From positions 1 through 48,789 of the forward strand of contig JAESPD010000027.1 in the NCBI GenBank assembly GCA_016756855.1: a stretch of DNA of 48,789 nucleotides. The letters are read 5' to 3'. The notes below the pieces were generated by a model. It saw only the letters and a program-made list of their open reading frames with translations. It did not search any database and was not told the DNA's origin. Below, in pieces: positions 22,854-48,346 of this stretch (position 1 is the first letter of the stretch; each line of letters begins with the position of its first letter). The position numbers and the translations under genes were made by a program. The stretch is from a gamma proteobacterium endosymbiont of Lamellibrachia anaximandri (GTDB lineage Bacteria > Pseudomonadota > Gammaproteobacteria > Chromatiales > Chromatiaceae).

Positions 22854-24329
22854 ATGGGTGAAGCGGCGGAAAAACTAACTCCTGCGTTTCCTCGACTCTG
22901 TGTCTATCTTGTTGATGAGGATCCCGAGAGGCGTAAATATCTGGAGCATATTCTCAGTTTTCTGGACGGGAATGTTCTGTTCGCCAATAACCCGGAGGAT
23001 ATCCATCAACATATCAAATCGGCAACCGAGGCATGCTCTGCTGTTTTGGTCGGCCCGGATCTGGATCGGGATACCCTCAGTAATTTTGCGAACAAGCTGA
23101 ACGAATTGCACCCCGAGATTCCTCTCTTTCAGACTATTTTGGATGGGAGTGAGTTGTGGCGAGGATTCGAGGGTTGTGGAAACGTAATTGGCTCGCTGAG
23201 TCTCCCCACGCAATATGACAGCCTGATGGGGTTGATCCACAAGGCCCAGGTCTATCAGGAAGCTCACAAAAAGGGCGAAGTCGTTGCGCGGCCGGTCGAA
23301 CTGTTTCGAAGTCTATCCGGCAGTAGTCGGGCGACACGGCAGGTCAATCGCATGATCGAGCAGGTGGCCGATTCTGATGCGACTGTCTTGATATTGGGTG
23401 AGTCGGGGACAGGTAAAGAGGTGGTGGCGCGAAAGCTTCATTTTCACTCCCATCGCCGTGGCAAGGCCTTTGTGCCGGTGAATTGCGGCGCGATCCCTGC
23501 CGATCTGCTGGAGAGCGAACTTTTCGGCCATGAAAAAGGAGCCTTTACCGGGGCAATCAGTGCCCGCAAGGGACGCTTCGAGATGGCCGAAAGCGGTACC
23601 CTGTTTCTTGATGAGATCGGTGACATGAGTATGCCGATGCAGGTCAAGCTGTTGCGTGTTTTGCAGGAGCGTACTTTCGAGCGTGTCGGCAGCAATAAGA
23701 CACTGCACGCGAATGTCCGCATCATTGCGGCGACTCATCGCAATCTTGAGGAAGCGATTGAAGAGGGCAGATTTCGTGAAGATCTATTCTATCGTCTGAA
23801 TGTGTTTCCCATAGAAATGCCACCACTGCGGGATCGGGTGGAGGATATTCCGGTACTGGTCAACGATCTGATTCATCGCATAGAGAATGAGAAGCGAGGG
23901 TCGGTACGTTTGACTCCCGCAGCTGTTGCGGCCCTGAGTCACTATCGATGGCCTGGTAATGTCAGGGAATTGGCGAATCTGATAGAACGGTTGGCAATTC
24001 TCTATCCCTATGGGGTGGTCGACGTGGGCGACCTGCCGGACAAATTCCGGCCTGCGGGTGGAGTGCTCGATACGGTGCAACTGCCCGAAGTGACAATCCC
24101 TGGAGATGAGCCGGACACCACGTTGCACGCACCACGACTGCCTAATGACGGCATCGATCTCAAGGCCCATCTTGGCAACCTGGAGCAGAGTCTGATCCAG
24201 CAAGCCCTCGAAGAGTCGGGCGGTGTCGTCGCGCATGCCGCCAAGCGACTCCACATGCGGCGCACGACATTGGTGGAAAAACTGCGTAAATATGGCCTTC
24301 AACGCCAGCATGAGTCGACGGGAATTTGA
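22854..24329 (+). CDS. fleQ: Flagellar master regulator FleQ/FlrA, sigma-54-dependent activator
   Basis: A 491-residue enhancer-binding protein. It has a degenerate receiver-like N-terminal domain (about 15-135), then an AAA+ domain with Walker A GESGTGKE, the sigma-54 contact loop GAFTGA and Walker [13 protein letters not shown] Fis-type helix-turn-helix closes the C-terminus ([20 protein letters not shown]). FleQ-type proteins activate early flagellar genes and, in pseudomonads, respond to c-di-GMP. The ATG has GGAG at good spacing. It precedes fleS, fleR and the fliE-J genes, whose sigma-54 promoters fit its role. Confidence 0.93.
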
Positions 24330-24382
24330 CGTTCCTTGATGATGGAATCTACAACCCATTGAAATATAACAAATAATAAAAT

Positions 24383-24398
24383 AGGCACGGTTGTTGCT
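24383..24398 (+). promoter_or_regulatory. Sigma-54 promoter upstream of fleS
   Basis: AGGCACG-GTTG-TTGCT fits the consensus TGGCACG-N4-TTGCA/T closely, with the essential GG and GC dinucleotides 10 bases apart. It lies 47 bases before the GTG of fleS and is the expected target of FleQ. Confidence 0.85.
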
Positions 24399-24444
24399 CT
24401 GTATCTGGGTGTCAAGATGACATTCAACTGCAGAGACATAAAAC

Positions 24445-25680
24445 GTGCCAATAAGCCCCTCAACGCCTGAACGTCAACAATCTCTCGAAGCGGCGTTCAA
24501 TCTGTTCAATCAACTATCTGAAGAGCTGACCGGTTCATACCAGCAGTTGCAGCATCAGGTATTACAGTTGAGCAGCGAACTGGCCGCTGCGCGTAGTGAA
24601 CGCACCCTTCAATTGGCGGATAAAGAACGTATTGCCGACCGGTTGGAACGTCTGCTCGAAACGCTTCCAGCGGCTGTGGTCGTGCTTGATGGCGATGAGT
24701 GTGTGCAGGAGTTCAACCCGGCGGCACGGCGTCTGCTGGGTTCCATCAACGAAGGGGATGACTGGCGTGAGTTGCGCCGGCGGTTGTTTCAGATCCCGCA
24801 ACATTCAGGGGATGACCTGCGTCTCTGCAATGGTCGCATTCTCAGCATCTCATCCTGTGACCTTGAGCAAGCGCCTGGGCGTATCCTGGTCATGCTCGAC
24901 GTCACCGAAACCCGCAAGCTGCAGGAGCGCCTGAACCGCCAGGAGAGACTGGGGGCGATGGGAGAGATGTCCGCACAGCTTGCTCATCAGATGCGTACAC
25001 CCCTCAGTTCCGCCTTGCTCTACACCTCCCACCTCTCACGCGACGATCTGACATCCGGTCAACGTCAACGATTTACCGGCAAACTGCGCTCCCGGTTGCA
25101 GCATATGGAACGCCAAATTCGCGACATTTTGATGTTTGCCCGAGGCTCATCGGAAGGCGAAGAGCTCATCTCCCTGTCAGAGCTGCTGGGTGAATTTGCA
25201 GAGGGTATCAGGCCGGAACTGAACGATGTGGCGGTGACACTCAAGATAGAGGATCTCAGTGCTGGGGCAGCCGTGATAAAAGGCCGCCGCGATGCACTGC
25301 TCGGCGTATTGAGCAATTTGACGGACAACGCATTACAACAAGGCGCAAGGCGCATCACGCTGCTGCTGAGGGTTACAGATGATGTGGAATTGCTCTTCAG
25401 TGACAACGGTCCCGGTGTCCCGGCCGAAATCCGAGAACAGATTTTTGACCCTTTCTTTACCAATCGGGCAGGGGGAACCGGTCTGGGTCTGGCTGTGGTG
25501 CAGAACCTGATGCTGAGTCATCATGGCGAGATCTGTCTGACCGACAGCCTGAATGGAGGTGCTTGCTTCCAATTGGCATTTCCTCTGGTTTCTCTCCAAC
25601 AAACAGAACAACAGATAGCCGTTGAATTACCGGTGTTAGGTGCCGGAAGTCCTCTCATTGAGGCGAGGAGATTGTCATGA
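24445..25680 (+). CDS. fleS: Flagellar sensor histidine kinase FleS/FlrB
   Basis: A 411-residue soluble kinase from a GTG start. It has an N-terminal coiled region, a PAS domain (about 65-160), and a dimerisation segment with phosphoacceptor H181 in SAQLAHQMRTPL. The ATPase domain shows an N-box region (NLTDNALQQGAR), G1 (DNGPGV) and G2 (GGTGLGLAVV). There is no membrane segment, as in FleS/FlrB. It phosphorylates FleR, whose gene overlaps it by four bases, to switch on middle/late flagellar genes. A sigma-54 promoter lies at 24383-24398. Confidence 0.92.
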   Translation: MPISPSTPERQQSLEAAFNLFNQLSEELTGSYQQLQHQVLQLSSELAAARSERTLQLADKERIADRLERLLETLPAAVVVLDGDECVQEFNPAARRLLGSINEGDDWRELRRRLFQIPQHSGDDLRLCNGRILSISSCDLEQAPGRILVMLDVTETRKLQERLNRQERLGAMGEMSAQLAHQMRTPLSSALLYTSHLSRDDLTSGQRQRFTGKLRSRLQHMERQIRDILMFARGSSEGEELISLSELLGEFAEGIRPELNDVAVTLKIEDLSAGAAVIKGRRDALLGVLSNLTDNALQQGARRITLLLRVTDDVELLFSDNGPGVPAEIREQIFDPFFTNRAGGTGLGLAVVQNLMLSHHGEICLTDSLNGGACFQLAFPLVSLQQTEQQIAVELPVLGAGSPLIEARRLS

Positions 25681-27029
25681 GTCAGGCAACTGTTCTCATC
25701 GTAGAAGATGATCCTGCTCTGCGTGAAGCACTGATTGATACCCTCGAACTTGCCGGCTATCCGGTAAGGGCGACGGAAGGGGGCAGCGCGGCGTTGGAGA
25801 TATTACGTCAGGAGCCTGTAGGCATAGTGGTGAGCGATGTGCAGATGCGCCCGATGGACGGGCATCGCCTGTTACGCCGGATCAAGGCGGGATATCCCAA
25901 TCTGCCTGTATTGCTGATGACCGCTTTCGGAACGATCGAAAAGGCGGTAGATGCGATGCGTGATGGTGCGGTGGATTATCTGATCAAGCCCTTCGAGGCG
26001 GAGGTGCTGGTGAGTAAAGTCGCGGGGCATATCCTGACTGCCGTGGACAAATTACAGCGTGGTCCAATTGTCGAGGACTTGCGCAGCCGTGAGGTGCTGG
26101 AGCTTGCTCGTCGTGTCTCTCACAGTGAAGCGACGGTGTTGATCAACGGGGAGAGCGGCACAGGTAAAGAGGTGTTTGCCCGTTATATCCACCAGACTTC
26201 AGAACGGCGCGATGGCCCATTCATTGCCATCAACTGTGCGGCTATCCCGGAGAATATGCTGGAAGCCGTCCTGTTTGGCTACGAAAAGGGTGCCTTTACC
26301 GGTGCTTATCAGTCCGCTGCCGGTAAATTCGAGCAGGCTCAGGGTGGTACTCTGCTGCTTGATGAGATCTCTGAGATGAGCATGGCGCTACAGGCAAAAC
26401 TGCTGCGCGTATTGCAGGAACGGGAAGTTGAACGCCTTGGCGGGCGCAAGATGATCGAACTCGATGTGCGGGTTCTGGCCACCACCAATCGCAAACTGCG
26501 TGAGGAGGTTTCCGCCGGTCGTTTTCGCGAGGATCTCTTCTATCGGCTCAATGTTTTTCCTCTGACCCTGCCGCCGTTGCGGGAGCGCAAACGGGACATT
26601 ATTCCCCTGGCCAGACATCTTTTATCCCAGCACCTGCTGCCGGGACAGTCAGTGCCGCCGTTCAGTGAAGCGGCTCAGGTTCAGCTCTTATCCCACGCTT
26701 GGGCCGGGAATGTGCGTGAACTGGAGAATCTGATACAGCGTGCCCTGATCCTCTACAACGGCGAACAGATAGAGGCTGAAGACCTTGCGTTTGAGAGTGC
26801 AGATGACGCTGAAGCACCCAGTGTATCCCCAGCAGCCGAAGCTTCAGCAGGGAGACTGCCGGAGGACCTGCGTTCAGTTGAGGAGCAGATGATCATGGAT
26901 GCCCTCCATGAAGGCGCTGGAAGCCGCAAGCAGGCGGCGGAGCGTTTGGGTATCAGTCAGCGCACGTTGCGTTACAAGATAGCCCGCATGCGCAATGCTG
27001 GCATGGCGATTCCCGGCCGGGCAGGTTGA
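25677..27029 (+). CDS. fleR: Flagellar response regulator FleR/FlrC
   Basis: A 450-residue response regulator. The receiver domain has acidic residues at EDD (10-12), phosphoacceptor D54 in VVSDVQMRP and the conserved Lys in LIKPFE. An AAA+ domain follows with GESGTGKE and GAFTGA, and a Fis-type helix-turn-helix closes the protein (AAERLGISQRTLRYKI). Phosphorylated FleR activates sigma-54 promoters of basal-body and hook genes. The ATGA overlap with fleS and a GAGGAGA ribosome binding site show coupling. The next promoter, at 27031, is a likely target. Confidence 0.94.
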   Translation: MSQATVLIVEDDPALREALIDTLELAGYPVRATEGGSAALEILRQEPVGIVVSDVQMRPMDGHRLLRRIKAGYPNLPVLLMTAFGTIEKAVDAMRDGAVDYLIKPFEAEVLVSKVAGHILTAVDKLQRGPIVEDLRSREVLELARRVSHSEATVLINGESGTGKEVFARYIHQTSERRDGPFIAINCAAIPENMLEAVLFGYEKGAFTGAYQSAAGKFEQAQGGTLLLDEISEMSMALQAKLLRVLQEREVERLGGRKMIELDVRVLATTNRKLREEVSAGRFREDLFYRLNVFPLTLPPLRERKRDIIPLARHLLSQHLLPGQSVPPFSEAAQVQLLSHAWAGNVRELENLIQRALILYNGEQIEAEDLAFESADDAEAPSVSPAAEASAGRLPEDLRSVEEQMIMDALHEGAGSRKQAAERLGISQRTLRYKIARMRNAGMAIPGRAG

Positions 27030-27030
27030 T

Positions 27031-27046
27031 TGGTGCGGAATCTGCA
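27031..27046 (+). promoter_or_regulatory. Sigma-54 promoter upstream of fliE
   Basis: TGGTGCG-GAAT-CTGCA keeps the essential GG-N10-GC and matches most consensus positions. It begins two bases after the fleR stop and lies 41 bases before fliE, so it should drive fliEFGHIJ under FleR control. Confidence 0.8.
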
Positions 27047-27086
27047 TAGAACAGATATATAGATCGATTTGAGTGGGGAGTGAACG

Positions 27087-27404
27087 ATGAGCAACATGGA
27101 TATCAACCAGGTTTTGGCGCAGATGCGGGTGATGGCCGCCCAAGCAGAAAATGCCCCAAAGCCGGTTGAAGAGGCAGGGCAGAGCAACTTTGGCGACCTG
27201 CTGAAAAATTCCATTGATCAGGTCAATGAGACCCAGCATGAGGCGAAGGCGCTTACCACTGCGTTTGAAACCGGTGAAGGGGATGTGGATCTTGCTCAGG
27301 TGATGATCGCAGTGCAGAAGTCGAGCCTATCCTTCGATGCGATGGTACAGGTTAGAAACAAGCTGGTCGAAGCCTATAAAGACGTAATGAATATGCCTAT
27401 CTAG
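27087..27404 (+). CDS. fliE: Flagellar hook-basal body protein FliE
   Basis: A 105-residue protein of typical FliE length, with a disordered N-terminus and the conserved C-terminal helix (QVMIAVQKSSLSFDAMVQVRNKLVEAYKDVM, split here only for reference). FliE links the MS ring to the proximal rod. A strong ribosome binding site, GGGGAG, precedes the ATG. It is the first gene of the flagellar structural operon behind a sigma-54 promoter. Confidence 0.95.
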   Translation: MSNMDINQVLAQMRVMAAQAENAPKPVEEAGQSNFGDLLKNSIDQVNETQHEAKALTTAFETGEGDVDLAQVMIAVQKSSLSFDAMVQVRNKLVEAYKDVMNMPI

Positions 27405-27470
27405 CTGTTACAGCACAAAAAAATACGCAACTGAAAGAAAAGTCAGATTAATCAAGCCGGAATCGTAATC

Positions 27471-29150
27471 ATGGCACTTGCAACAACTGATGAGTCGGGT
27501 AAGGCACTGGAAGTCAACCAGCGTCTTCAGGACAACCCCATCTTCCGCCAAATCGCAGTTATGGTCGGCATTGCCGCCAGCGTAGCGTTGGGTGTGGCAG
27601 TGGTGCTCTGGTCGCAGGCGCCGAACTACAGTCTGCTCTACGGCAATCTGGCGCAGAAAGATGCGATGGAGATCGTTCAGGCACTGCAACAGATAGGCAT
27701 CGAGTATCAGGTGGATCAATCCTCAGGTGCAGTGATGGTGCCATCCGCAGATCTGCAGGAGGCGCGGATGAAACTTGCCGGACAGGGTTTGCCGCATAGT
27801 GACTCTCTCGGTTTTGAACTATTGCAGCAGGATGCCGGTTTCAACACCAGCCGGATGGTCGAGGCAGCTCGTTATCAGCGTGCGATGGAAGGGGAACTGG
27901 CCCGCTCCATTGCCACACTGGCAAATATCGAGACGGCCCGCGTCCATCTGGCAACACCCAAACAGTCGGTGTTTGTGCGGCAGCGCAAAGTGCCCAGCGC
28001 CTCGGTGGTAATCAAACTCTATTCGGGACGGACGCTGGAAAAAGGTCAGGTGGAAGCGATCTCTCATCTGGTGGCGTCCAGCGTACCCGAACTGGATGTA
28101 GCCCAAGTCACTGTAGTGGATCACAAAGGAAAACTACTCAGTGGTGCGGGCAAATCCGCGCAGATGACCATGTCCACCAGCCAGTTTGAATATACCCGCG
28201 AGTTGGAAGCGCATTACAAACAGCGTATCGAAGATATTTTGTCGCCCCTGTTGGGACAGGATAATCTGCGGGCTGAGGTCGCGGCCGAAGTCGATTTTAC
28301 GGTGATTGAACAGACCCAGGAGAGTTACGATCCGGATATGAGTGCGCTGCGTTCCGAGCAGATCAATGAACAGCAGAGTCGATTGAGCGAGATACAGGGA
28401 GTTCCCGGCGCACTGACGAATCAGCCGCCCGCTGCAGGAAATGCGCCAGAGCAGGCAGGTGGAGAAGGGGGTGAAGGAGAGGCTGCGAGCCCGATTAATA
28501 CCAGCAAGCGCGCCACCCGTAACTTTGAGTTGGACAAAACCATCAGTCATACGCGGTTGCCCAGTAATAGCCTGCGTAGGCTTTCGGTGGCAGTGGTGGT
28601 CAACGACAGGGTCGCGCTGGGTGAGGACGGGGTGCCGCAACGGATTCAGCGGACACCGGAAGAGATCACCCGCATCACCAATCTGGTAAAGGAGACAGTT
28701 GGTTTCAAAATTCAGCGTGGCGACAGCGTACAAGTGCTCAATGAGTCTTTCTTTATCCCCGCCCCCCCTGAACCACTGCCTGAACTGGCGATTTGGGAAG
28801 AGGCCTGGTTCTGGGATGCGGTGCGGCAGGCGGGTGGTGTGTTGCTCGTGCTGCTGTTGATCTTCGGTGTACTGAAGCCCACGATGAATCGTCTCACCGC
28901 ACAGGTTGTGACGACTGGGGTGGAAGGTGAAGGTGTTGCCGGTGGTGGCGTGGCAGGTGAAGGGGGGCTCGAAGGCACCCTGGAGGGCGCCGGGGGTGAA
29001 GGCCTCGCCCTGGAGGGGGATGAAACAGTAAAGCTGCCAGGCCCTGGCAGCTATGAAAAAACTATCGATGCCGCGCGCGGTATGATCGAAAATGATCCCA
29101 AGCGTGTGGCGCAGGTCGTGAAGAAGTGGATTGCAGAAGATGCCGGATAA
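27471..29150 (+). CDS. fliF: Flagellar MS-ring protein FliF
   Basis: A 559-residue protein. It has an N-terminal membrane helix (about 25-45) and a periplasmic ring-building domain (NYSLLYGNLAQKDAMEIVQAL; GFNTSRMVEAARYQRAMEGE). A disordered Gly/Glu-rich stretch follows, then a second helix (about 445-465). The cytoplasmic C-terminus that binds FliG contains an unusual Gly/Glu/Val-rich insert at about 485-515. FliF forms the MS ring in the inner membrane. Its end overlaps the fliG start by 11 bases. Confidence 0.97.
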   Translation: MALATTDESGKALEVNQRLQDNPIFRQIAVMVGIAASVALGVAVVLWSQAPNYSLLYGNLAQKDAMEIVQALQQIGIEYQVDQSSGAVMVPSADLQEARMKLAGQGLPHSDSLGFELLQQDAGFNTSRMVEAARYQRAMEGELARSIATLANIETARVHLATPKQSVFVRQRKVPSASVVIKLYSGRTLEKGQVEAISHLVASSVPELDVAQVTVVDHKGKLLSGAGKSAQMTMSTSQFEYTRELEAHYKQRIEDILSPLLGQDNLRAEVAAEVDFTVIEQTQESYDPDMSALRSEQINEQQSRLSEIQGVPGALTNQPPAAGNAPEQAGGEGGEGEAASPINTSKRATRNFELDKTISHTRLPSNSLRRLSVAVVVNDRVALGEDGVPQRIQRTPEEITRITNLVKETVGFKIQRGDSVQVLNESFFIPAPPEPLPELAIWEEAWFWDAVRQAGGVLLVLLLIFGVLKPTMNRLTAQVVTTGVEGEGVAGGGVAGEGGLEGTLEGAGGEGLALEGDETVKLPGPGSYEKTIDAARGMIENDPKRVAQVVKKWIAEDAG

Positions 29151-30189
29151 AAAGATAAAGCCAGCTGCAGCCCCTGTGGAAGAGCCGGAAGCGATTGCCA
29201 AGATAGGCGGCGTACAGCGCTCCGCTATTTTGTTGTTGGCTCTGGGCGAAAAGGATGCCGCCGAACTGCTCAAACATATGGGGCCGAAAGAGGTGCAGGA
29301 TGTTGGTATGGCGATGGCGAGTCTGACGAACGTCACCACCGACCAGATGGAAGCGGTGATGCGCCATTTTGTCTCCACCCTCGAGACACAGACCGCCCTT
29401 GGACTGGGTTCCGACGAATATATCCGCAACATGCTTACCAATGCCCTCGGTGAAGATAAAGCGGGTGGCGTGATCGACCGGATTTTGCTGGGCCGAAACA
29501 GCAAGGGCCTGGAACAGCTGAAATGGATGGACCCCCGTTCCATTGCTGAATTGATTCGGCTGGAGCACCCGCAGATTATCGCCATCGTGCTCTCATTTTT
29601 AGATGCCGATCAGGCGGCACAGGTACTGAGCCAATTTCAGGAGAAGGTCAGAACTGATGTCATTATGCGCATTGCGTCCCTGGATGGCATCCAGCCTGCG
29701 GCACTACAGGAGTTGGACGAGATACTGGAGAAGCAGTTTTCAGGCGCCTCCAATGTCAAAACATCCAACCTTGGCGGTGTCAAAACCGCTGCAGAGATTC
29801 TGAATCTGCTGGATGGCGCGGTGGAGAGCAAGGTCATGGAGCAGATCATGGATACTGATACCGATCTGGGTCAGGAGCTTCAGGACAACATGTTTGTGTT
29901 TGATAATTTGATCGATGTCGACGACAGGGGTATTCAGACCCTGCTGCGCGAAGTGGCTTCTGAACAATTGCTGCTCGCGCTGCGTGGTGCGGAAGAGGGA
30001 CTCAAAGACAAGATCTTCAAGAATATGTCCAAGCGGGCGGCTGAAATGCTCAAGGATGATCTGGAAGCAGCAGCACCCGCTAAACTCAGTGATGTGGAAG
30101 GATCGCAGAAAGAGATTTTGCAGGTAGCGCGTCGCCTGGCCGATGCCGGTGAGATTATGCTTGGAGGTGGTGGTGAAGAGTTCCTCTAA
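29140..30189 (+). CDS. fliG: Flagellar motor switch protein FliG
   Basis: The ATG at 29140 gives 349 residues; a TTG-started frame 9 bases earlier is less likely. All three FliG domains are present: the N-terminal FliF-binding domain (RSAILLLALGEKDAAELLKHM), the middle domain with the EHPQ motif (RLEHPQIIAIVLSFL), and the charged C-terminal torque domain (LLREVASEQLLLALRGAEEG). FliG receives torque from the stators and switches rotation direction. It overlaps fliF upstream and fliH downstream. Confidence 0.97.
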   Translation: MPDKKIKPAAAPVEEPEAIAKIGGVQRSAILLLALGEKDAAELLKHMGPKEVQDVGMAMASLTNVTTDQMEAVMRHFVSTLETQTALGLGSDEYIRNMLTNALGEDKAGGVIDRILLGRNSKGLEQLKWMDPRSIAELIRLEHPQIIAIVLSFLDADQAAQVLSQFQEKVRTDVIMRIASLDGIQPAALQELDEILEKQFSGASNVKTSNLGGVKTAAEILNLLDGAVESKVMEQIMDTDTDLGQELQDNMFVFDNLIDVDDRGIQTLLREVASEQLLLALRGAEEGLKDKIFKNMSKRAAEMLKDDLEAAAPAKLSDVEGSQKEILQVARRLADAGEIMLGGGGEEFL

Positions 30190-30862
30190 GATTCTGTCCG
30201 ACAAAGAGACGGATACGGTTCGCCAATGGTTACCACCCGACGTGGGGGGAGGTGGAAGCTCGCAGACGTTTCAGAAATCGATTCAGCCACCGGATGCGCC
30301 GCCCACAGCGGCTGAACTGGAGGCAGTTCAACAGCAAGCTTACGAAGAGGGTTTTGAAAAGGGCAAGGAAGAGGGCTTTGAATTCGGTCACAGGGAGGGA
30401 CTGGAGCAGGGGCGGGATCAACTGCGGGAATATGCCATGCAGATGGATCGGCTGCTCTCCACTTTAGATCAGCCGCTACGGAACCTGGACAACAAGGTCG
30501 AAGATGAGCTGGTGACTCTGGTGATCTCAATGGTCAGGCAGTTGGTGCGCCGTGAGGTGAACAGCGATCCCGGCCAGATAGTGGGCGTGGTGCGAGAAGC
30601 CCTTGCCCTGTTGCCGGTCTCTTCACGCAATGTACGTCTTCAGCTCCACCCGGAAGATGCCGAGTTGGTTCGGGATATCTATTCGCTGGGCGAGAACGAT
30701 CTTGGCTGGAAAATCATTGAAGATCCGGTGATCAACCGCGGCGGCTGCAAAGTGGTGACCGAGACGTCCCAGATCGATGCAACCCTGGAGTCGCGACTTG
30801 CCAACCTGATTGCCCCGCTGCTGGCGGGTACGCGCACCATCGATGAAGAGGAGGTGGAGTAG
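30173..30862 (+). CDS. fliH: Flagellar assembly protein FliH
   Basis: The GTG at 30173, with GGAGG five bases upstream, gives 229 residues and a 17-base overlap with fliG; the ATG at 30143 is a poorer choice. The N-terminal half has the glycine/acid repeat helix typical of FliH (GFEKGKEEGFEFGHREGLEQ). The C-terminal domain binds and restrains the FliI ATPase. It acts in the cytoplasm in the flagellar export apparatus. fliI follows directly. Confidence 0.9.
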   Translation: MKSSSKILSDKETDTVRQWLPPDVGGGGSSQTFQKSIQPPDAPPTAAELEAVQQQAYEEGFEKGKEEGFEFGHREGLEQGRDQLREYAMQMDRLLSTLDQPLRNLDNKVEDELVTLVISMVRQLVRREVNSDPGQIVGVVREALALLPVSSRNVRLQLHPEDAELVRDIYSLGENDLGWKIIEDPVINRGGCKVVTETSQIDATLESRLANLIAPLLAGTRTIDEEEVE

Positions 30863-32272
30863 ATGCCTTCTCATCCACCCAAAGCTGACCGGAGTGATAT
30901 CTGGGTCAGCAGACTTCGTGACCATGCCAAACGGATGGGGGAAGGACGCGGCCTGGTGGTCGAAGGCCGTCTGACACGCATGGTGGGACTGACCCTTGAA
31001 TCCGTTGGTTGCCGGGCGGCAATCGGTGGACAGTGTGATGTGGTTAGCTCCAACGGCACACATATTGAGGCCGAGGTGGTGGGATTTGGCGAAGAGAGCC
31101 TCTATCTAATGCCGACTGGCGATATTCGGGGACTTGAGCAGGGCGCGAGAGTTATTCCAACGGGAAGCGTATGTGAGGCGGTAGTGGGTGACCATCTACT
31201 AGGCCGGGTCATTGATGGTGCAGGACGTCCGTTGGATGGAAAAGGGGGGCTGCATGCCGATGAGCGCCGTCCCCTCACCGGACAGACCTTCAATCCTCTG
31301 GCGCGAACGCCCATTCGTGAACCTCTAGATGTTGGCGTACGGGCAATCAATGCGTTACTGAGTGTGGGGCGGGGTCAACGGCTCGGTCTCTTCGCAGGAT
31401 CAGGTGTTGGCAAGAGTGTGCTGCTCGGCATGATGACCCGCTATACCAACGCAGATGTGACCGTCGTGGGTCTGATCGGAGAGCGAGGCCGCGAGGTAAA
31501 AGAGTTCGTTGAAAACAGTTTGGGTGAAGAGGGGTTGAAACGGGCGGTTGTGGTGGCTGTACCGGCGGACAATCCACCACTGCGCCGCATGCATGGTGCC
31601 ATGCTGGCCACCAGCATCGCCGAATACTTCCGGGAGCAGGGCAAGCATGTCCTGTTGCTGATGGACTCTCTCACCCGTTTTGCCCAGGCACAGAGGGAGA
31701 TTGCCCTGGCGATCCATGAGCCACCCGCCACCAAAGGTTATCCCCCTTCGGTATTTGCCAAGCTGCCGCAACTGGTGGAGCGTGCAGGTAACGGTGATAA
31801 AGGGGGCGGTTCAATCACTGCATTCTATACCGTGCTGGCGGAGGGTGACGATCAGAACGACCCTATTGCTGATGCGGCACGGGCGATACTGGATGGGCAT
31901 ATCGTGCTCTCCAGACGATTGGCGGAAGCGGGGCACTACCCTGCCATTGACATTGAGGCATCCATCAGCCGGGCGATGAATGAGATCACCACCTATGGTC
32001 ATCAGGATGCGGCTCGCTCATTCAAACATCTCTACTCGCTCTATCAGCAGAATCGCGATCTCATCAGTGTTGGGGCTTATGAACAGGGCAGTGACGAACA
32101 GATCGATATCGCCATTGCAGCAATGCCGGCCCTGACCGAGTTTCTGCGTCAGGATATGCGTACCCCCGTTAACCTGCGTGAGAGTCTCGATACGCTGGAG
32201 GCACTTTTTCCTTCTGAAGCGGAAGTGGAAATGCCGGGAGATCTGCCCCTGCAACCGGCAGGTCGTGTTTAG
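30863..32272 (+). CDS. fliI: Flagellum-specific ATPase FliI
   Basis: A 469-residue export ATPase related to F1 beta. Walker A is [11 protein letters not shown], and family segments [12 protein letters not shown] and [17 protein letters not shown] are present. It powers unloading of flagellar export substrates together with FliH and FliJ. The ATG directly follows the fliH stop, with GAGGTGGA as ribosome binding site. Length and motifs are normal. Confidence 0.97.
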
Positions 32273-40743: not shown

Positions 40744-41547
40744 TCAGTCGGTGATTATTCCTGAGCGTCGCAGCTGTGAGAGTGTCTTAGCCTGCTCGCT
40801 CTCATCCGCATAGAGGACAACGACCCTGAAACGCTGTTCGGGCAGTTTGAACCAGTCAAACCGCAGGTCGGGAAAGCGCTTCTGCAGCGATCTCACATAG
40901 GCCTCGACCCGGTAGGGGCGGTTGAATTCGATGAGCGCCCGTCTCTTTTCCGTTGAATAGGGCTGTTGTGGTTCGGTGGATTTGCGGCGGTTGATATCCG
41001 TCACATAGGTGAGGTGACGATAGATATAGCGGCTGTACCACTCTGCGCCGTCTGGTATGTCCTCCCCGGTTTTGGATATCCGGCCGGGGCCATAATTGTA
41101 GGCAGCCAGTGCCAAGTGCAGGTCGTTGTTATAGCGTGCAAGCAGTTCTTTGAGGTATCGGGTGCCCGCATCCACATTTCGACAGGGGTTGTAGAGGTCT
41201 GCAATCCTGTTGATTCCTAGATGTTTCGCGGTGCCCGGCCATTGGATCTGCATCAGACCATGTGCATTTGCGTGGGAGCGGGCTGCAGGATCGAAATCGC
41301 TTTCACCCCGTGAGACTGCCAGCAGAAGGGTCAATGGCAGGCCGTGATTTGCTGCGGCCCGGCGGAAACAGTGCAGATAGGGGAAGCGTTTGCTCGGCTC
41401 TCTGCTGTCTGCGGGAGACAGGTAGTTTTTCCAACTCTCTGAAAGGGTTGTTGTCCTGATTTTCGCAGCACTGCTGACGAGCTGGGAAAAGACCATTCCA
41501 GCCAGCAGGCAGAGCAGGAGGATTCTATTCCTATTTATCTGGGTCAT
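40744..41547 (-). CDS. Lytic transglycosylase (SLT domain) with SPOR-like C-terminus
   Basis: A 267-residue exported protein with a signal sequence or anchor at residues 8-27. The SLT domain spans about 55-180, with catalytic E82 in AVSRGESDFDPAARS, then the HGLMQIQWPGTAKHLG and LALAAYNYGPGRI motifs. The last 75 residues (RALIEFNRPYRVEAYVRSLQ; FRVVVLYADESEQAKTLSQL) have the alternating strand/helix pattern of a SPOR-like domain. It cleaves peptidoglycan glycan strands in the periplasm. It is the last gene of the seven-gene envelope operon, starting 17 bases inside the end of the preceding gene. Confidence 0.88.
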   Translation of the reverse strand: MTQINRNRILLLCLLAGMVFSQLVSSAAKIRTTTLSESWKNYLSPADSREPSKRFPYLHCFRRAAANHGLPLTLLLAVSRGESDFDPAARSHANAHGLMQIQWPGTAKHLGINRIADLYNPCRNVDAGTRYLKELLARYNNDLHLALAAYNYGPGRISKTGEDIPDGAEWYSRYIYRHLTYVTDINRRKSTEPQQPYSTEKRRALIEFNRPYRVEAYVRSLQKRFPDLRFDWFKLPEQRFRVVVLYADESEQAKTLSQLRRSGIITD

Positions 41548-42043
41548 GGGATGCCTGCTCTATTTCGAGGCCGCTTGCGGCAGCAATTTGTGTGAGGGCG
41601 ATGGTGCGGTCAGCTTCACCCCAATGCGCAAAATCCACCTGATATCTGCCCGATTCGATCTGCTGGACACGCATTTGGCGTCCTGTCAGGCGTTCAATAC
41701 GACTGGCAAATCCGTTGGCGGAACGTTCACTGTGGAATGGGCTCCAGAACGGCTGCCATTGTTGGTCGATTGCCTGAAGCTCGATATTGGATATTGGTGG
41801 CTCTTCAGTCGTGGTGGGTCTGTCGACCGGGATTGGCGGATCTTCCAATTCGTGGTCACCTGCCGTTGGGGTGGAGAGTGCTGCCTCATCCGATAGGTTG
41901 GGTGTTGCTGGAACACTTTGCGACGGCATTTGAGTGGGTAGGGTGCTGCTGGAGATTTGCCGAGTCGGTGTCGGATTGAAAACCAGCCCCAGGAGGAAAA
42001 CTGCCACCCCGAAACCTGTAATAAGTCCAATAAGTCTTGCCAT
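41531..42043 (-). CDS. Single-pass membrane protein with SPOR-like periplasmic domain
   Basis: The ATG at 42043 gives 170 residues; another ATG at 42055 lies two bases after the upstream stop. A membrane helix (residues 3-21) is followed by a Pro/Thr/Ser-rich linker (about 25-85). A C-terminal domain of about 75 residues follows (WQPFWSPFHSERSANGFASR; YQVDFAHWGEADRTIALTQI). The layout of anchor, linker and compact C-terminus matches SPOR proteins, which bind denuded peptidoglycan, though the match is by pattern only. It sits between the large lipoprotein and the lytic transglycosylase. Confidence 0.6.
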   Translation of the reverse strand: MARLIGLITGFGVAVFLLGLVFNPTPTRQISSSTLPTQMPSQSVPATPNLSDEAALSTPTAGDHELEDPPIPVDRPTTTEEPPISNIELQAIDQQWQPFWSPFHSERSANGFASRIERLTGRQMRVQQIESGRYQVDFAHWGEADRTIALTQIAAASGLEIEQASHDPDK

Positions 42044-42057
42044 GATATCTCTCATTC

Positions 42058-43584
42058 CTAATAAATATTAATCAATGAGTTATGAGTATTAATTAATGTA
42101 ATATCTCTTGATGTCCATGCAACGTTCGAAGCGTGCTCCAGCATCAGCTGATCAAGCTTCTGCAACCAACTCATGAGTTCTTCAGCGTCGAGTTGAGGAT
42201 CTTCGTAACCGTGGCAACTCTCCGGCAGGAGGGCGAGATGAGCGGCGACCACCCCCGCGCTACGATTATCATTGGTGATTATCGCGTAGTAGGTCTCCCG
42301 TTCGGATTGATCATCACCATGCAGCACGCCCTCCACGCCTCGCCGGTGCCGTGAAGGCAGGCGCAGGGTCTTTCCATTGGAATTCCGGGAAGATCTCACT
42401 CCAAGATGTTGGCACTCTGATGGGGCGAGACGAAACAGTGCACCGTCGCCACGCTTTTTGAAGAAAAACCCCCGGCTCTGCGCAGACGCAGCTATCTCCA
42501 AGGCAAAGCACCCCTGCTTGGGAATGACCGCCTGCCCATTGAGCACGCGCTCTCCTGAGCGCCAGGGATGGCGTGTGCCGCAAAGCGAGAGTTTTCTCGG
42601 TGTGATGATCTGGAGGACGCCGGCACTTTTTGCCACTCTCTCCGGCCTCTTTTTCTGGGCAGGGACGGCCTCGGCGATTGTGGCCTGTGCGGGACCAGAC
42701 AGAAGATAGGTACTGACACTGATATCCGGCAATGCCGAAGCAGCCTCGGCAGGTTGGGCCAGAATCCAGAACTGCTGCAGATTTCCTGAGATCCGGTGAG
42801 TTTTTCCTTTTATCGTCAGATCGGCATCAGCCTGTTTTTGTTCAATATGAACATCACCAAAACGGGCAAGATAGTGAGTGAGCAGTTCCATGGTTGTACG
42901 CGACTGCGCTTCACCACCTTCATAAGGCTGAATATGAAGTTTGGGATTTTGAACAGGCAACTGTTTAAGACGGCAGTAGAGGTCATCAGCCAGTTGTCTG
43001 GCCATAAGATCCGGCTGTCCCTGAACAAAAGGCAGCATTCGCAGACCTCGAAGTGACTCATCCAGATGCACAGTGCGCAGCAATTCCGCCTGCTGGCGGG
43101 ATGCCTCTCCCTGCCACTGTCGGCTGAACCCGGAGACCCAGCTGTTCTGTTGCAGATCCAATGCCCTGAGGGTCAGATTCAACTGCCGACTGCTGTCGAG
43201 TCTGAGGTCCAGGCCGATGAAATAGTGGATCGGCTGTTCACCATCACAGGGCTTAGTGGGTCTATCCTGGTGACTCCAATGCTTGTCCCGTTGTTGTCGG
43301 GCCAGATGGATACCCGCAGTCGCCAGTAGTTCGGCGTTGATTTTGTCGCGGATGTCCCGTGTCAGCTGGTCCATTTTTGGTTGAATCGCACCGTCCTTCA
43401 GTCTGCCCAACAGTATGGGTTCTCCCTGGAAACGGGGATGCTGGCGGAGTTGTGTCTTGAGATAGGGGATAAGATCCTGCTCAACCCACTGGTCAAGGGT
43501 GGATTGTGATGCGAGTCTGGTCGGTTGGGTGACACAACCACTCAGGCTTATCAGAAGAAGAGTAAGACAGATTGATCTAAACAT
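42058..43584 (-). CDS. Large lipoprotein of unknown function
   Basis: The ATG at 43584, with a strong AAAGGAGA ribosome binding site, gives 508 residues. The lipobox LISLSGC places the lipidated Cys at residue 17. Residues about 25-220 look like a CsgG/LpoB/FlgO-type alpha-beta domain. A region about 320-440, with repeated short strands and G/R-rich turns (LSLCGTRHPWRSGERVLNGQ; GFFFKKRGDGALFRL), faintly resembles DUF4384; both are pattern impressions. It begins 8 bases inside the end of the ExbD-like gene. It is probably attached to the outer membrane. I cannot assign a function. Confidence 0.65.
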   Translation of the reverse strand: MFRSICLTLLLISLSGCVTQPTRLASQSTLDQWVEQDLIPYLKTQLRQHPRFQGEPILLGRLKDGAIQPKMDQLTRDIRDKINAELLATAGIHLARQQRDKHWSHQDRPTKPCDGEQPIHYFIGLDLRLDSSRQLNLTLRALDLQQNSWVSGFSRQWQGEASRQQAELLRTVHLDESLRGLRMLPFVQGQPDLMARQLADDLYCRLKQLPVQNPKLHIQPYEGGEAQSRTTMELLTHYLARFGDVHIEQKQADADLTIKGKTHRISGNLQQFWILAQPAEAASALPDISVSTYLLSGPAQATIAEAVPAQKKRPERVAKSAGVLQIITPRKLSLCGTRHPWRSGERVLNGQAVIPKQGCFALEIAASAQSRGFFFKKRGDGALFRLAPSECQHLGVRSSRNSNGKTLRLPSRHRRGVEGVLHGDDQSERETYYAIITNDNRSAGVVAAHLALLPESCHGYEDPQLDAEELMSWLQKLDQLMLEHASNVAWTSRDITLINTHNSLINIY

Positions 43585-44422
43585 TCCCTTGTCTCCTTTC
43601 CAGTTTGACACGGCCCAGGGCATCGATAATGAGCAGACCACCACTGGACTCCTGCATTAATTGTTGAATTTTTCCCTGCAACAGATGGGGCAGTTCCACG
43701 CCCCAAACGACCTGTGTTCCTGCTGAAGTGACGGGCCGTTGTCGGAAGGCCTGCAGGACATCACCGGGTACTGTTTCAGGCATCATTTCATGGTAGCGTC
43801 GGGGAGAGGGCGAAACATGAAACACGTTTTTTCCATTGGAAAAAGTAAGCTTCCAGGTTGTTTCCGGGCCTAGAGCATAGAGTTTAATACTCTCGTTTTG
43901 AACAAGGTGTTTTAAAGCCAGATCTGAGGAGAATCTCAGTTCAAATCCTGGTTCTTCATCTTTAGTGGTGTCTGTCTCCTGCGCCTCGATAGGAGTGACG
44001 GTTTGAGGTTTTTTCTTTAACTGCTGATCCAGGGTCGATAGATCTTTCCGACGCTGTTTAATCTTTAGATTCAATGCAGAGAGTTGCTGCTGTTTCTGTT
44101 GAGACTGTGCCGTCAGCACCTTCTGTTCGTCAGAAATCCTGCGATGTTTTTGCTGTTGTTGTTCGAGATCTGTATGAAGTTGCTCCAGAGAGGCGATGAG
44201 GGTCTGCTGCACCTGTTCCAATCGACTGTTGTCGGCTTTCTCTTCAACGATTTTGGGTTCTTCCGAAGCGGCCTGCGGCAGTGACTGCACCAAGGCAAAG
44301 ATCGCCATCAGACAAAAGCCGAGAATTGCCATAAAGCGCATCACATCGGCCTGCAGTTCATCCGTGCCACCAGATCCTGCATGGGGATCAGCGCTGTAGA
44401 TTTGTGAGTGCCAGAGGTTCAT
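43577..44422 (-). CDS. ExbD/TolR-like membrane protein with long coiled coil
   Basis: The ATG at 44422 gives 281 residues; the longer frame to 44566 would lie deep inside the preceding gene. A short cytoplasmic tail leads to one membrane helix (about 27-48). At its entry is ADVMRFMAILGF, closely similar to the IDVM motif of ExbD that carries the proton-path Asp (here D26). A Gln/Lys-rich coiled coil covers about 65-135, and an unfamiliar C-terminal domain of about 130 residues follows. It overlaps the ExbB-like gene by 35 bases. This size and architecture differ from ExbD, TolR and MotB. Confidence 0.65.
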   Translation of the reverse strand: MNLWHSQIYSADPHAGSGGTDELQADVMRFMAILGFCLMAIFALVQSLPQAASEEPKIVEEKADNSRLEQVQQTLIASLEQLHTDLEQQQQKHRRISDEQKVLTAQSQQKQQQLSALNLKIKQRRKDLSTLDQQLKKKPQTVTPIEAQETDTTKDEEPGFELRFSSDLALKHLVQNESIKLYALGPETTWKLTFSNGKNVFHVSPSPRRYHEMMPETVPGDVLQAFRQRPVTSAGTQVVWGVELPHLLQGKIQQLMQESSGGLLIIDALGRVKLERRQGNV

Positions 44423-45065
44423 CCCGATTCTCTTGGTGGTGGCTGATTTGTTGCAAGTGGCTGTCGATGCGATCCAATGAGGTCTGTACTGCCGTGTTGT
44501 GCTGCTCGGCCAAATGGCTGTAGTAGCGCTGTAGCTCACCACCAACGGCAACTGCCTTGACGACACGCATCAGATAGCCGCCAATGCCGCCGAATATGGT
44601 GGTGGAGAGCGCGAGCAGGATCCCTCCATCGACCAATCGTTGAAGAATGACGAAGGCACCGAGTTGCGCTGCGCTCTCAGGATTGCCGAGAGCGGAGAGC
44701 AGGGCACTGCGCATTCCGATGGCGGTCCAGATCACGCCAATGCCGAAAAACAGCCCGATCCAGATATCGGTCAGGTGTGCCGCCTGGACGATCCTGTCGA
44801 TGGATTGTCCTGCAGTAATGCGTTGCCGCAGGGTGCGCAGACTCAGCAGAAACAGCAGGAATACCAGGGTGAAAGGCCAAATAGCCATGCCCATATTGCG
44901 GCTGCTCCAGCTAAACAGGTTTTGCAAGCCTTCCAGGGATTCGGCTGAGATTGTCACCAGGTTTTGGGCCGACAGCAGCCACAATAGCAGGCTGCCAAGA
45001 CTCAAGGTGATAAACAAACCCAGCAGAACCCCCTTCAGAAAGCGACTGAGATACCCCCTTTTCAT
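44388..45065 (-). CDS. ExbB/TolQ/MotA-like membrane protein
   Basis: The ATG at 45065 gives 225 residues; the frame to 45173 runs through the neighbour's stop region. There are four membrane helices, at about 11-32, 55-77, 103-125 and 143-170. The last two resemble the proton-channel domain of ExbB/TolQ/MotA, with IGVIWTAIGMRSALL matching the third ExbB segment and VDGGILLALSTTIFGGIGGYLM the fourth. A cytoplasmic helical tail follows. With the overlapping ExbD-like gene it should make a proton-conducting motor. Divergence from known families is considerable. Confidence 0.65.
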   Translation of the reverse strand: MKRGYLSRFLKGVLLGLFITLSLGSLLLWLLSAQNLVTISAESLEGLQNLFSWSSRNMGMAIWPFTLVFLLFLLSLRTLRQRITAGQSIDRIVQAAHLTDIWIGLFFGIGVIWTAIGMRSALLSALGNPESAAQLGAFVILQRLVDGGILLALSTTIFGGIGGYLMRVVKAVAVGGELQRYYSHLAEQHNTAVQTSLDRIDSHLQQISHHQENRDEPLALTNLQR

Positions 45066-45081
45066 CGCTTCTCTTCCCGCG

Positions 45082-45627
45082 CTAATTAGCGCTGCAGGCG
45101 GTGCAGGTGGCTTCCAGCACCAGTTCCGTCTCTTGCAGCAGTCGGTCAGCGCGCTGATAACTACCGGTATCACGGCTGATCTTTACCAGGCCGCGCTCCT
45201 TGTCGAGTAGCTCCCGTTCCATGTTTGCCAGCACCTCCTGTTGTTTTGGACAGGTCAGGCTGCAGTTGTTGTAGTCCCCCATCAGGGAGACATATTTGAC
45301 GTTGAAATAGCGGTTGTAGATCGACTTTGCCTGCTGCTTGCTCAACAGACCCGCCTGATTTGACCAGAGTAGAAATTCGCTGAACTTCTCTTTGTTCGCA
45401 GGTTTTGGATCGCTCTCGGCAATATTCATCAGACGCCCAAGGTAGGCATCGAACTGGAAGCTGCATACATCACTCAAATCACTCTTCGACTGGCTTACGG
45501 CGACATCCAGGTCGTGACCCTGTGGCGGGATGCAGGCGTTGGCCTTTACCGGCTGGGTGTCGCAACCGGCGGTGAATGAAACGGTGGCAAAAAGAGCCGC
45601 TGTGATCAGTACTTTTGTGCTATTCAT
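45082..45627 (-). CDS. Cysteine-rich lipoprotein of unknown function
   Basis: A 181-residue protein with a lipoprotein signal; SFTAGC puts the lipidated Cys at residue 22. The mature part has six further cysteines (ACIPP, VCSFQF, NCSLTCP, TCTACSAN), which suggests disulfides or metal binding in the periplasm. Much of it is helical. The GGGAGA ribosome binding site is good. It lies 12 bases after the first gene of the operon and 16 bases before the ExbB-like gene. I do not recognise a family. Confidence 0.6.
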   Translation of the reverse strand: MNSTKVLITAALFATVSFTAGCDTQPVKANACIPPQGHDLDVAVSQSKSDLSDVCSFQFDAYLGRLMNIAESDPKPANKEKFSEFLLWSNQAGLLSKQQAKSIYNRYFNVKYVSLMGDYNNCSLTCPKQQEVLANMERELLDKERGLVKISRDTGSYQRADRLLQETELVLEATCTACSAN

Positions 45628-45639
45628 GGTGTTTCTCCC

Positions 45640-46485
45640 TTAGAGGCTGAGTGGGCTCTGGTACGCTGTGCTGTCTGCAGTGGTTGGAGGCGCCGCAAGG
45701 GGCATTTCACTCTCCGGATCACCAAACAGGATGCCCTTGACCCCGTTTACCACCTCCAGCATCTCAGGCGTGATGGTGCCGAAGGATTGGTTGAGTTGGC
45801 CCATGAGGGTGGCTCTGCTGATCTCCTGTCGGGTGCGGGCGATCAGATCGGAGGTCTCTTCCATGTCCAGGTATATGTCGGAGGCGATGACCGCCATGGA
45901 TGAACCCTGCGACGATGAGCTGTTGGAGACCAGTTTGTAATACTGGCTGAAGCGGTCGCTGAGCCGCATGCCGGAGCGCCCACGCAGGTTGGGCCGGGTC
46001 TGTGATGCCTGCTTGCCGGACTGCCCGCCGAGCAGGTTCTCCTGCAGGGACCAGGGTGTCATGCCATTCCCCAACTCCTTGCGAAGACGTTTCGCCAGAC
46101 TCTTGCGGGTCGTCTCCACCGCCTGCTCCATGGTGGGCAGGTTGCTCTCCATGATGTTCAGCATTTCGAGATAGGTTGCTCCAAGTTGCTTGTTCAACTG
46201 GGCACAGCCGGGATCGTCATCCGCCTCTTCGCATTTACTGTCGATGATCAGTTGCTGCTGTTGATCCAGACGGGATATCACCTCCTGCAACCCGCTCTCC
46301 ATCTCTTTGGCAACGCTGCCGGTGTGGCGAATGTCCTCGAGTACCGTGGTGGGGAAGAGCTTGAGGGTAGGGGTGTTGGCTGCCTGGGTCGGGATGGCGA
46401 ACAGCAACATCCAGGCCAAAACAAGTGCCGAAAACGGCTGCAAGCCGGTTGAATCTGATAGGTTGAATTTGCTTGGGGTGCTCAT
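45640..46485 (-). CDS. Secreted, mostly helical protein of unknown function
   Basis: A 281-residue protein with a signal peptide ending near residue 35 (IPTQA-A). The mature part has long helical stretches (KEMESGLQEVISRLDQQQQL; YLEMLNIMESNLPTMEQAVE), a Gly/Gln/Ser-rich middle and a Pro-rich end. Two cysteines (KCEEADDDPGCAQL) could form a disulfide. A very strong ribosome binding site (AGGAGGGA) precedes the ATG at 46485, marking it as the first gene of the operon. The family is not recognised. Confidence 0.6.
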   Translation of the reverse strand: MSTPSKFNLSDSTGLQPFSALVLAWMLLFAIPTQAANTPTLKLFPTTVLEDIRHTGSVAKEMESGLQEVISRLDQQQQLIIDSKCEEADDDPGCAQLNKQLGATYLEMLNIMESNLPTMEQAVETTRKSLAKRLRKELGNGMTPWSLQENLLGGQSGKQASQTRPNLRGRSGMRLSDRFSQYYKLVSNSSSSQGSSMAVIASDIYLDMEETSDLIARTRQEISRATLMGQLNQSFGTITPEMLEVVNGVKGILFGDPESEMPLAAPPTTADSTAYQSPLSL

Positions 46486-46630: not shown

Positions 46631-48346
46631 ATGCCAAACCTGGAAACCACAACCCGACCCGAGACATCAGCGATTGCACTGGTGACCCTGCATGCAGGCT
46701 ACAGCCACTCCTCATTGGCGCTGCAGTCGATTGCCGCTTTCTGTCGCGGCGAGCCTTTCCACGACGAGATCCACCTGTTTGAACCGCTGGTCAATGTGAA
46801 TCACCAGCAGCTGATCGAATCGCTGGTGGCGTTGGCGCCGGCGGTGATCGGATTCTCGACCTATCTCTGGAACATCCAGGCGTCCATCAGACTGACACGG
46901 TTACTGAAGCAGCTTCTGCCGGAGTCGCTTTTTGTTTTCGGTGGTCCCGAAGCGGGACCGCGAGGCGCTGAGTTGTTGGGCAGAGTGGATGCAATCGATT
47001 TCATTGTGGACGGGGAGGGTGAAGCTGCTTTTCGTGATCTGGTGCGCTGGCGTCTTTACGGCGAGGGTGATCTTTCCGAAATATCGGGGCTGATCTGGCG
47101 CAAAGGCGGAACGATAGAGACCAATCTGATACAGATGCTGCCGGTGGAGGCGATTTCCTCACCGATTGCCCTGGGTTTGACGGATTTCACCAAGCCATTG
47201 GTTTACTGGGAGACCTCCCGTGGTTGTCCCTATCGCTGTACCTTCTGCACCAGTGCCACCGACAGGCTGCGTGCATTTCCTGTGAAGAGGGTGGAAACCG
47301 AACTCCAGATGCTAGAGGGGCTTGAGGCCAAAACAGTGAAACTGCTCGATCGCAGTTTCCATCTCGGAAAAAAGCGCACAGTAGAGCTTCTGCAGCGATT
47401 CGCCCATACGCCGGAGAGTCTGCGTTTCCATCTGGAGCTGAATCCGGACCGGATCTCCCCCGAGGCAATGGCGGTATTTCGCCAGGCAGTACCAGGGAAG
47501 TTCCAGTTTGAGATCGGACTGCAGACCCTGAGCGAGCCGGTGCTTGATGCCATCGACAGGCAGATGGATATCCCCAAGGCACTGGCGAATATTCGTGAGT
47601 TGGTCGAACTGAAAAAACACCCGGTCCATCTCGACCTGATCATAGGGCTGCCGGGAGAGGATGCAGCACAATGCAGTGACTCCCTGAACCGTGTATTTCG
47701 GCTCCATCCTGGCCATCTTCAGCTGGGCGCCTTGAAAATGCTGCCTGGTACACCCCTACAGATGCAGGCGGGGCCGTTGGGTTATCGTTGGGACAGGGAG
47801 CCGCCCTATGAAGTGCTCTCACACCCACTGCTCACTTTTCAGGAATTATCGCGGTTTAAGCTCTACGCGGAGTTGCTGGAACGTCTTTGGAATAGCGACT
47901 ACCTGGCTCATACACTGATGTGGCTGGTACCGCGCTATTTTGACGATGAGATCGTTGCCTGTTTCGATGCATTGTTAGTCGCGACGGGTGAGCGACTGGC
48001 TCGTGAAAATCTGCAGCCTGACCGGTTATTCGGTCTGGTCGTAGATTTCCTCGAGCCCATGCTGACTGGAGACCCCCGGTTACAGGAGTTGCTGCTCTGG
48101 GACTACAGTCGATTCAGTCTGGTCAATGGCAAGACACCATCCTGGATCGCTGAGCATCTACATGAGTGTGGAAAATTCGTGGTGCAGGGCAGTCGGCGCC
48201 AGTTGCCGATACTGTCACTCTCCAGCGAGGCGGCAGAGATCATCAGCCGCCGTGCCTTGGAGCCGACTGCAGCAGGTCGATATGCAGTCTGGCCGCGACA
48301 GCACAAAAAAGGCAAACCAGTGGAAATTTTTAAGGTGCATATGTAA
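46631..48346 (+). CDS. B12-binding-domain radical SAM protein (DUF4080 type)
   Basis: A 571-residue protein. The N-terminal B12-binding-like Rossmann domain covers about 15-150 (VTLHAGYSHSSLALQ; VIGFSTYLWN; VFGGPEAGPR). A radical SAM domain follows, with cluster motif C-x3-C-x2-C (RGCPYRCTFC) and ELNPDRISPE and GLPGEDAAQ segments. The C-terminal DUF4080 domain (about 380-550) is complete. The usual cobalamin-dependent B12 histidine motif is not evident. Substrate unknown. It is divergent from the envelope operon, with 145 bases between them. Confidence 0.88.
   Translation: MPNLETTTRPETSAIALVTLHAGYSHSSLALQSIAAFCRGEPFHDEIHLFEPLVNVNHQQLIESLVALAPAVIGFSTYLWNIQASIRLTRLLKQLLPESLFVFGGPEAGPRGAELLGRVDAIDFIVDGEGEAAFRDLVRWRLYGEGDLSEISGLIWRKGGTIETNLIQMLPVEAISSPIALGLTDFTKPLVYWETSRGCPYRCTFCTSATDRLRAFPVKRVETELQMLEGLEAKTVKLLDRSFHLGKKRTVELLQRFAHTPESLRFHLELNPDRISPEAMAVFRQAVPGKFQFEIGLQTLSEPVLDAIDRQMDIPKALANIRELVELKKHPVHLDLIIGLPGEDAAQCSDSLNRVFRLHPGHLQLGALKMLPGTPLQMQAGPLGYRWDREPPYEVLSHPLLTFQELSRFKLYAELLERLWNSDYLAHTLMWLVPRYFDDEIVACFDALLVATGERLARENLQPDRLFGLVVDFLEPMLTGDPRLQELLLWDYSRFSLVNGKTPSWIAEHLHECGKFVVQGSRRQLPILSLSSEAAEIISRRALEPTAAGRYAVWPRQHKKGKPVEIFKVHM

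Follow-up and report, generated by a model that had tools for sequence, protein, structure and literature searches.

A conserved seven-gene envelope operon that may link an ExbB/TolQ/ZorA-type protein to a lytic transglycosylase

A 48,789-nucleotide stretch of DNA from a gammaproteobacterial endosymbiont of Lamellibrachia anaximandri (contig JAESPD010000027.1, positions 1 to 48,789 of the forward strand; hereafter the window) carries seven closely packed genes, g1 to g7, that are conserved as a unit in other genomes. We consider, with a probability of about one half, that this operon encodes one envelope complex in which an ion-driven motor acts on peptidoglycan, because a ring protein of motor fold occurs together with a partner that combines an Asp-bearing helix and a shaft, and with an anchored protein and an enzyme that share an end domain. 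The motor core is recognizable as one of a known type and the seven-gene set is apparently undescribed; in agreement with an initial annotation of the window, literature searches found no known system with this composition. The features discussed below are as follows.

45640..46485, minus strand: g1, secreted protein, 281 aa; highest conservation in the set
45082..45627, minus strand: g2, lipoprotein, 181 aa; lipobox Cys22 and six more invariant cysteines
44388..45065, minus strand: g3, membrane protein, 225 aa; predicted ExbB/TolQ/ZorA fold
44724..44726, minus strand: g3 Thr114, putative pore position; 36/36 aligned rows; aligned with the GTV threonine of TolQ/ExbB
44598..44600, minus strand: g3 Thr156, putative pore position; 36/36 aligned rows
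43577..44422, minus strand: g4, presumed motor partner, 281 aa; predicted helix 19-47, coiled coil 65-135, end domain about 159-277
44345..44347, minus strand: g4 Asp26, start of the membrane helix; 35/35 aligned rows
42058..43584, minus strand: g5, lipoprotein, 508 aa; DUF4384-like C-terminal part
41531..42055, minus strand: g6, membrane-anchored protein, 174 aa; SPOR-like end domain behind a variable linker that is often rich in proline
41534..41764, minus strand: g6 end domain, residues 98-174; related to the g7 end domain
40744..41547, minus strand: g7, secreted SLT lytic transglycosylase, 267 aa; SLT match
41302..41304, minus strand: g7 Glu82, presumed catalytic acid; 36/36 aligned rows
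40747..40941, minus strand: g7 end domain, residues 203-267; related to the g6 end domain

Conservation and layout of the operon

The seven-gene linkage is far beyond chance. A scan for g1 in one genome per species (84,980 species) returned 112 relatives, and the best 80 of these were kept as loci, in which the profiles of the other genes were searched. All seven genes were found in 59 of the 80 loci. At least 6.9 kb of room is available in 56 loci, and in 53 of these the complete set occurs in unchanged order and on one strand, so that the expectation of genes that travel together was upheld. The three exceptions are L078 and L103, in which a run of N occurs at or soon after g4, and L083, which lacks g6. 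Where there was room for each gene in the 80 loci, g2 was present in 77/77, g3 in 74/74, g4 in 68/68, g5 in 61/63, g6 in 55/58, and g7 in 54/56. Distances between the seven genes correlate at 0.84 to 0.92 across 35 loci, a value that was obtained with no outside control gene and speaks for shared history only.

According to record taxonomy, 76 of the 80 loci belong to Pseudomonadota (22 of those to Woeseiaceae), and the four loci with no taxonomic label are tubeworm symbionts. Among 210 genomes from the order of the window, 14 have g3, a count that includes the genome of the window itself; all seven genes were matched in 10 of the other 13, and the remaining three comprise two contigs that are too short (L028 and L030) and one locus with no g6 match (L031). 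Wider draws contained g3 in 6 of 369 genomes for the class and in 1 of 398 for the phylum (the window's own), while one further family had it in 9 of 23 genomes and another in 1 of 5. One genome holds two g3 copies (G550:C82 and G550:C144). In a tree of the joined families, the window pairs with a Motiliproteus metagenome-assembled genome with strong support, amid Chromatiales-like rows. No match to g1 was found in phage, plasmid, and viral-contig collections.

In the window, the operon spans 40744-46485, and the initial description of seven minus-strand genes with gaps of 16 bases or less and three overlaps was borne out: the gaps are 12, 16, and 2 bases and the overlaps 35, 8, and 17 bases when the preferred starts are used. 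These starts (45065 for g3, 44422 for g4, and 43584 for g5) are shorter than their alternatives and were preferred because a ribosome-site-like sequence is present and because they agree with relatives. Scans for promoters and terminators gave signals no greater than those in shuffled sequence. Signal peptides and lipoboxes were assigned by eye and by pattern, and g7 alone among the seven window proteins reached a curated cut-off (Pfam SLT). For g3, g4, g5, g6, and g7, the family scans covered all members, 35 or 36 for each gene.

The motor-type protein g3 and its presumed partner g4

The ExbB/TolQ/MotA-like character first proposed for g3 is supported by a fold match and by two pore threonines. 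The AlphaFold2 model (predicted local distance difference test score 89.3) has ExbB and TolQ as its top-ranked solved structures, and among the 50 structural matches listed, 20 are ExbB, TolQ, or ZorA, including ranks 1, 2, 4, 5, and 7. Among the listed motor rows, ZorA (8vvi) has both the lowest root-mean-square deviation and the highest identity (2.8 A over 98 residues, 17%), and no MotA entry occurs among those 50 matches, an absence that does not count against any relationship. The model thus places g3 in the ExbB/TolQ/ZorA fold. Profile comparison points the same way, as the g3 profile scored better against ExbB/TolQ/MotA than 150/150 block-shuffled controls and better against a MotA_ExbB protein adjoining a vWA gene than 100/100 such controls. 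In the profile alignment, Thr114 and Thr156 pair with the threonines of this genome's TolQ; published work names Thr148 and Thr181 of ExbB and Thr145 and Thr178 of TolQ as essential pore threonines.

In the Pfam scan, 0/36 g3 members match PF01618 at E 0.1, and the profiles of g1, g3, g4, and g5 have no credible match among PDB sequences. A whole-genome search with PF01618 yielded eight places, g3 not among them, and by eye these include tolQRA-like, exbBD-like, and motAB-like clusters; thus, the seven-gene set is an addition to the motors of this genome and not a replacement. Of all motor proteins, the one closest to g3 is encoded at a locus of the same genome (L008, contig C181), where a MotA_ExbB gene is followed directly by a gene whose product has a membrane helix, a coiled coil, and, by eye, a vWA-like segment. 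The pair resembles the TolQ plus vWA pairs described in PMC12204202.

For g4, the model predicts a membrane helix at residues 19-47, a coiled coil, and a separate folded domain, and the shaft is coiled-coil or proline-rich. As in B subunits of the ExbD/TolR/MotB type, g4 is therefore predicted to have one N-terminal membrane helix that bears a conserved Asp, and we presume from layout alone that it is the motor partner of g3. The earlier view of g4 as an ExbD-like coiled-coil protein stands in part: the model has the helix and the coiled coil, and Asp26 is present, but neither sequence nor fold comparison connected g4 with ExbD, TolR, or MotB. The g4 helix compared with this genome's ExbD/TolR/MotB helices gave a probability of 0.45%, with 108/150 shuffled controls as good, although so short a helix offers little power. 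No solved fold among the rows listed matches the end domain of the model, these rows being mostly coiled coils, and the family has no OmpA-like match in Pfam. Arg29 follows Asp26 by one helix turn in 34/35 rows and has an equivalent in 0/8 of the B subunits compared. Models such as SMC and DRT also matched g4 (those from NCBIfam all below cut-off), but these matches were set aside as reflecting coiled-coil composition and not kinship.

A common end domain in g6 and g7

The assignment of g7 as an SLT lytic transglycosylase is supported at the level of domain and catalytic residues. The protein matches Pfam SLT (PF01464) above cut-off at E 1.2e-27, and the domain is present in 36/36 members. Glu82, Ser83, Met99, Gln100, Tyr150, Asn151, and Tyr152, which include the MQ and YNY residues, are each conserved in 36/36 rows; given the roles of these residues in SLT active sites, this is what would be expected of an active SLT enzyme. 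The NCBIfam transglycosylase models that match g7 are all below cut-off, and the best is a flagellar-assembly transglycosylase model.

Profile comparison relates the end domain of g6 to that of g7 (probability 97%, E 1.6e-10, 0/120 shuffled controls as good), and this is the sole link in an all-against-all comparison of the seven families. Both show some likeness to SPOR in profile comparison, at 32% for g6 (0/120 controls as good) and 7% for g7 (1/120 controls as good). The Pfam SPOR cut-off was not reached by either, with matches in 3/36 members of g6 (best E 0.038) and 1/36 of g7 (E 0.032). The sequence thus gives g6 a weak SPOR-like reading and g7 a very weak one, and the label first given to g6 survives as a profile likeness but not as a Pfam assignment. 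An SHLS-like motif was found in the first 30 residues of 0/60 g6 proteins, so g6 is not TonB or TolA in the motif sense.

The remaining components

No other of the seven proteins is as strongly conserved as g1, whose mean column identity is 63%; its Cys85 and Cys94 are invariant, and in 74/79 relatives the final eight residues include an SPL (or SPM) motif. Its best match among PDB sequences, to Abl interactor 2 (E 0.016), is helical and is not trusted. In g2, seven cysteines, one of them in the lipobox, are invariant in 36/36 members. Under the +2 rule, the residue after the lipid cysteine governs the membrane to which a lipoprotein is directed; in g2 this residue is Asp in the window and Ala in 43/78 relatives, and because it varies, the target membrane may differ between lineages. 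The designation of g5 as a lipoprotein applies to the window's lineage but not to the family at large, where a simple lipobox pattern occurs in only 18/62 relatives. Its C-terminal part resembles DUF4384 in profile comparison (65%, 78 aligned columns, 0/100 controls as good), and the DUF4384 model matches 2/36 members (best E 0.0024). An LpoB-like N-terminus of g5 was considered and rejected (probability 0.14%, 24/80 shuffled controls as good).

A secreted protein of about 110 to 135 residues is encoded directly after g7 in 18 of the 80 loci (L057, L074, L083, L094, L096, L098, L100, L104, L107, L111-L114, and L116-L120), and relatives of it lie just before g1 in some loci. In one upstream relative, a glycine-zipper model (Rick_17kDa_Anti, E 0.00011) falls just short of its cut-off, and the proteins after g7 do not have the glycine zipper of their longer relatives. 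The window holds no match to the small-protein profile. This small secreted protein is likely an eighth component that was lost or moved in the window's lineage.

Proposed mechanism and alternative explanations

We propose that g3, with its predicted fold of the ExbB/TolQ/ZorA type, would form a ring in the inner membrane, and that the Asp-bearing helix of g4 would be inserted in this ring with its shaft and end domain reaching into the periplasm, as in a B subunit. Motion might then be relayed to g6, anchored in the inner membrane, and to periplasmic g1 and g5, while the lipoprotein g2, together with g5 where it is a lipoprotein, would act as a membrane-bound partner. Through the end domain that they have in common, g6 and g7 are probably directed to one and the same site on the peptidoglycan; there g7 may cut glycan strands, and ion flow could thereby be coupled to local peptidoglycan remodelling. 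The initial annotation, which read the set as a proton-driven machine that couples the inner membrane to peptidoglycan remodelling or outer-membrane lipoproteins, is supported in part. PMC12288456 reports that denuded glycans accumulate and cells chain in tol-pal mutants; the build-up of these glycans makes a role at the division site plausible, and the site of action is perhaps there, beside Tol-Pal. More tentatively, we suggest an undescribed machine driven by ion-motive force, with seven parts of its own, among them a compact ring protein of four helices and a partner that has no kinship with ExbD/TolR/MotB; this machine would drive or steer peptidoglycan cutting mechanically via the g6/g7 end domain. 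Known motors of the type are listed in PMC12204202 as serving flagella and gliding, the uptake of nutrients, the stability of the outer membrane, type I secretion, and phage defence. If the proposal is true, a wall-cutting enzyme inside a motor operon would allow a direct test of ion-driven control of peptidoglycan breakdown, and six protein families that have no usable database model would gain a common context and exact residues to mutate.

Other arrangements of the same parts have to be weighed. The operon could instead encode a trans-envelope conduit or a surface machine (for secretion, adhesion, or gliding-like functions) in which the sole task of g7 is to open the wall so that the apparatus can be assembled, as happens for flagella and secretion systems. 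Machines that cross the envelope often have a dedicated SLT gene beside them, five of the components have no known domain or a weak one only, and the SLT enzyme is closest, under cut-off, to the flagellar-assembly model. However, the set contains no secretin, ATPase, channel, or adhesin gene, and an end domain common to g6 and g7 points to a shared wall site rather than to simple clearing, so that we regard such a conduit as unlikely. Rather more doubtful is an unpowered bridge, in which g3 and g4 are motor-derived or motor-like and conduct no ions, and the complex is a static link between the inner membrane, peptidoglycan, and the outer membrane. Arg29 could neutralise Asp26, and g4 shows no ExbD homology, as such a bridge would allow; the invariance of Thr114, Thr156, and Asp26 would instead fit a working ion path, although invariance alone is no proof.

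Membership in a known system appears far less probable. A divergent Tol-Pal or Ton system, which we consider very improbable, would account for an inner-membrane ring gene, an anchored linker protein, and lipoproteins in one operon, and g6 follows a TonB-like plan of helix, often proline-rich linker, and small end domain. The TolQ-type fold of g3 and the presence of periplasmic and lipid-anchored parts beside the motor and linker likewise recall Tol-Pal (TolQ-TolR-TolA-TolB-Pal-CpoB), and the denuded glycans of tol-pal mutants described in PMC12288456 are the substrate class expected for SPOR plus a transglycosylase. Nevertheless, as first stated for tonB, pal, and tolB, no TolB, Pal, CpoB, or TonB match was found among the seven proteins in Pfam or NCBIfam, the SHLS motif is missing from g6, and a lytic transglycosylase lies inside the operon. 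Moreover, g4 has no detected homology to TolR, g3 has an extra first helix when compared with TolQ, and a separate tolQRA-like cluster is present, by eye, in the same genome. A Zorya-like phage defence is the most remote of these readings. ZorB has a long shaft, which g4 shares in outline, and ZorA is the tightest listed structural match to g3. Contrarily, the set has a wall enzyme in place of the effectors and no nuclease or zorC/D-like gene; in line with the initial annotation, PADLOC gave no Zorya match for the seven proteins at E 1 and no credible defence family, its matches being only the coiled-coil ones of g4. The genes are also chromosomal and of stable, uniform make-up, and g1 is absent from the phage, plasmid, and viral collections.

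Resemblances to two further groups are partial. MotA, like g3, has four helices. The conserved Asp of the g4 helix has a counterpart in MotB according to PMC9389320. The MotAB stator differs in that g4 has no OmpA-like match in the Pfam scans and in that the segment between the second and third helices of g3 is short. The SPOR proteins of division (FtsN, DedD, DamX, and RlpA) resemble g6 in the short N-terminal membrane helix, the variable linker, and the SPOR-like end domain, but the few contacts of g6 and g7 with the SPOR model are at E 0.03 or worse.

Genomic setting

A TviB-like dehydrogenase gene lies 187 bases downstream of the operon, and a B12-binding radical SAM gene (46631-48346) lies 145 bases upstream of g1 in divergent orientation, a position that it also occupies in the five genomes of the same genus. 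No tRNA lies near the operon, and the neighbourhood comparison gave no flanking gene common to all lineages. Loci of the Woeseiaceae type, L052 and L055 among them, have a gene that is feoB-like by eye in divergent orientation just upstream of g1, and the sequence cluster of this gene is present in 25 of the 80 loci. Elsewhere in the window, flagellar genes occupy 22854-32272 and include a regulator of the FleQ/sigma-54 type, fliF, and a type III secretion system/flagellar ATPase gene.
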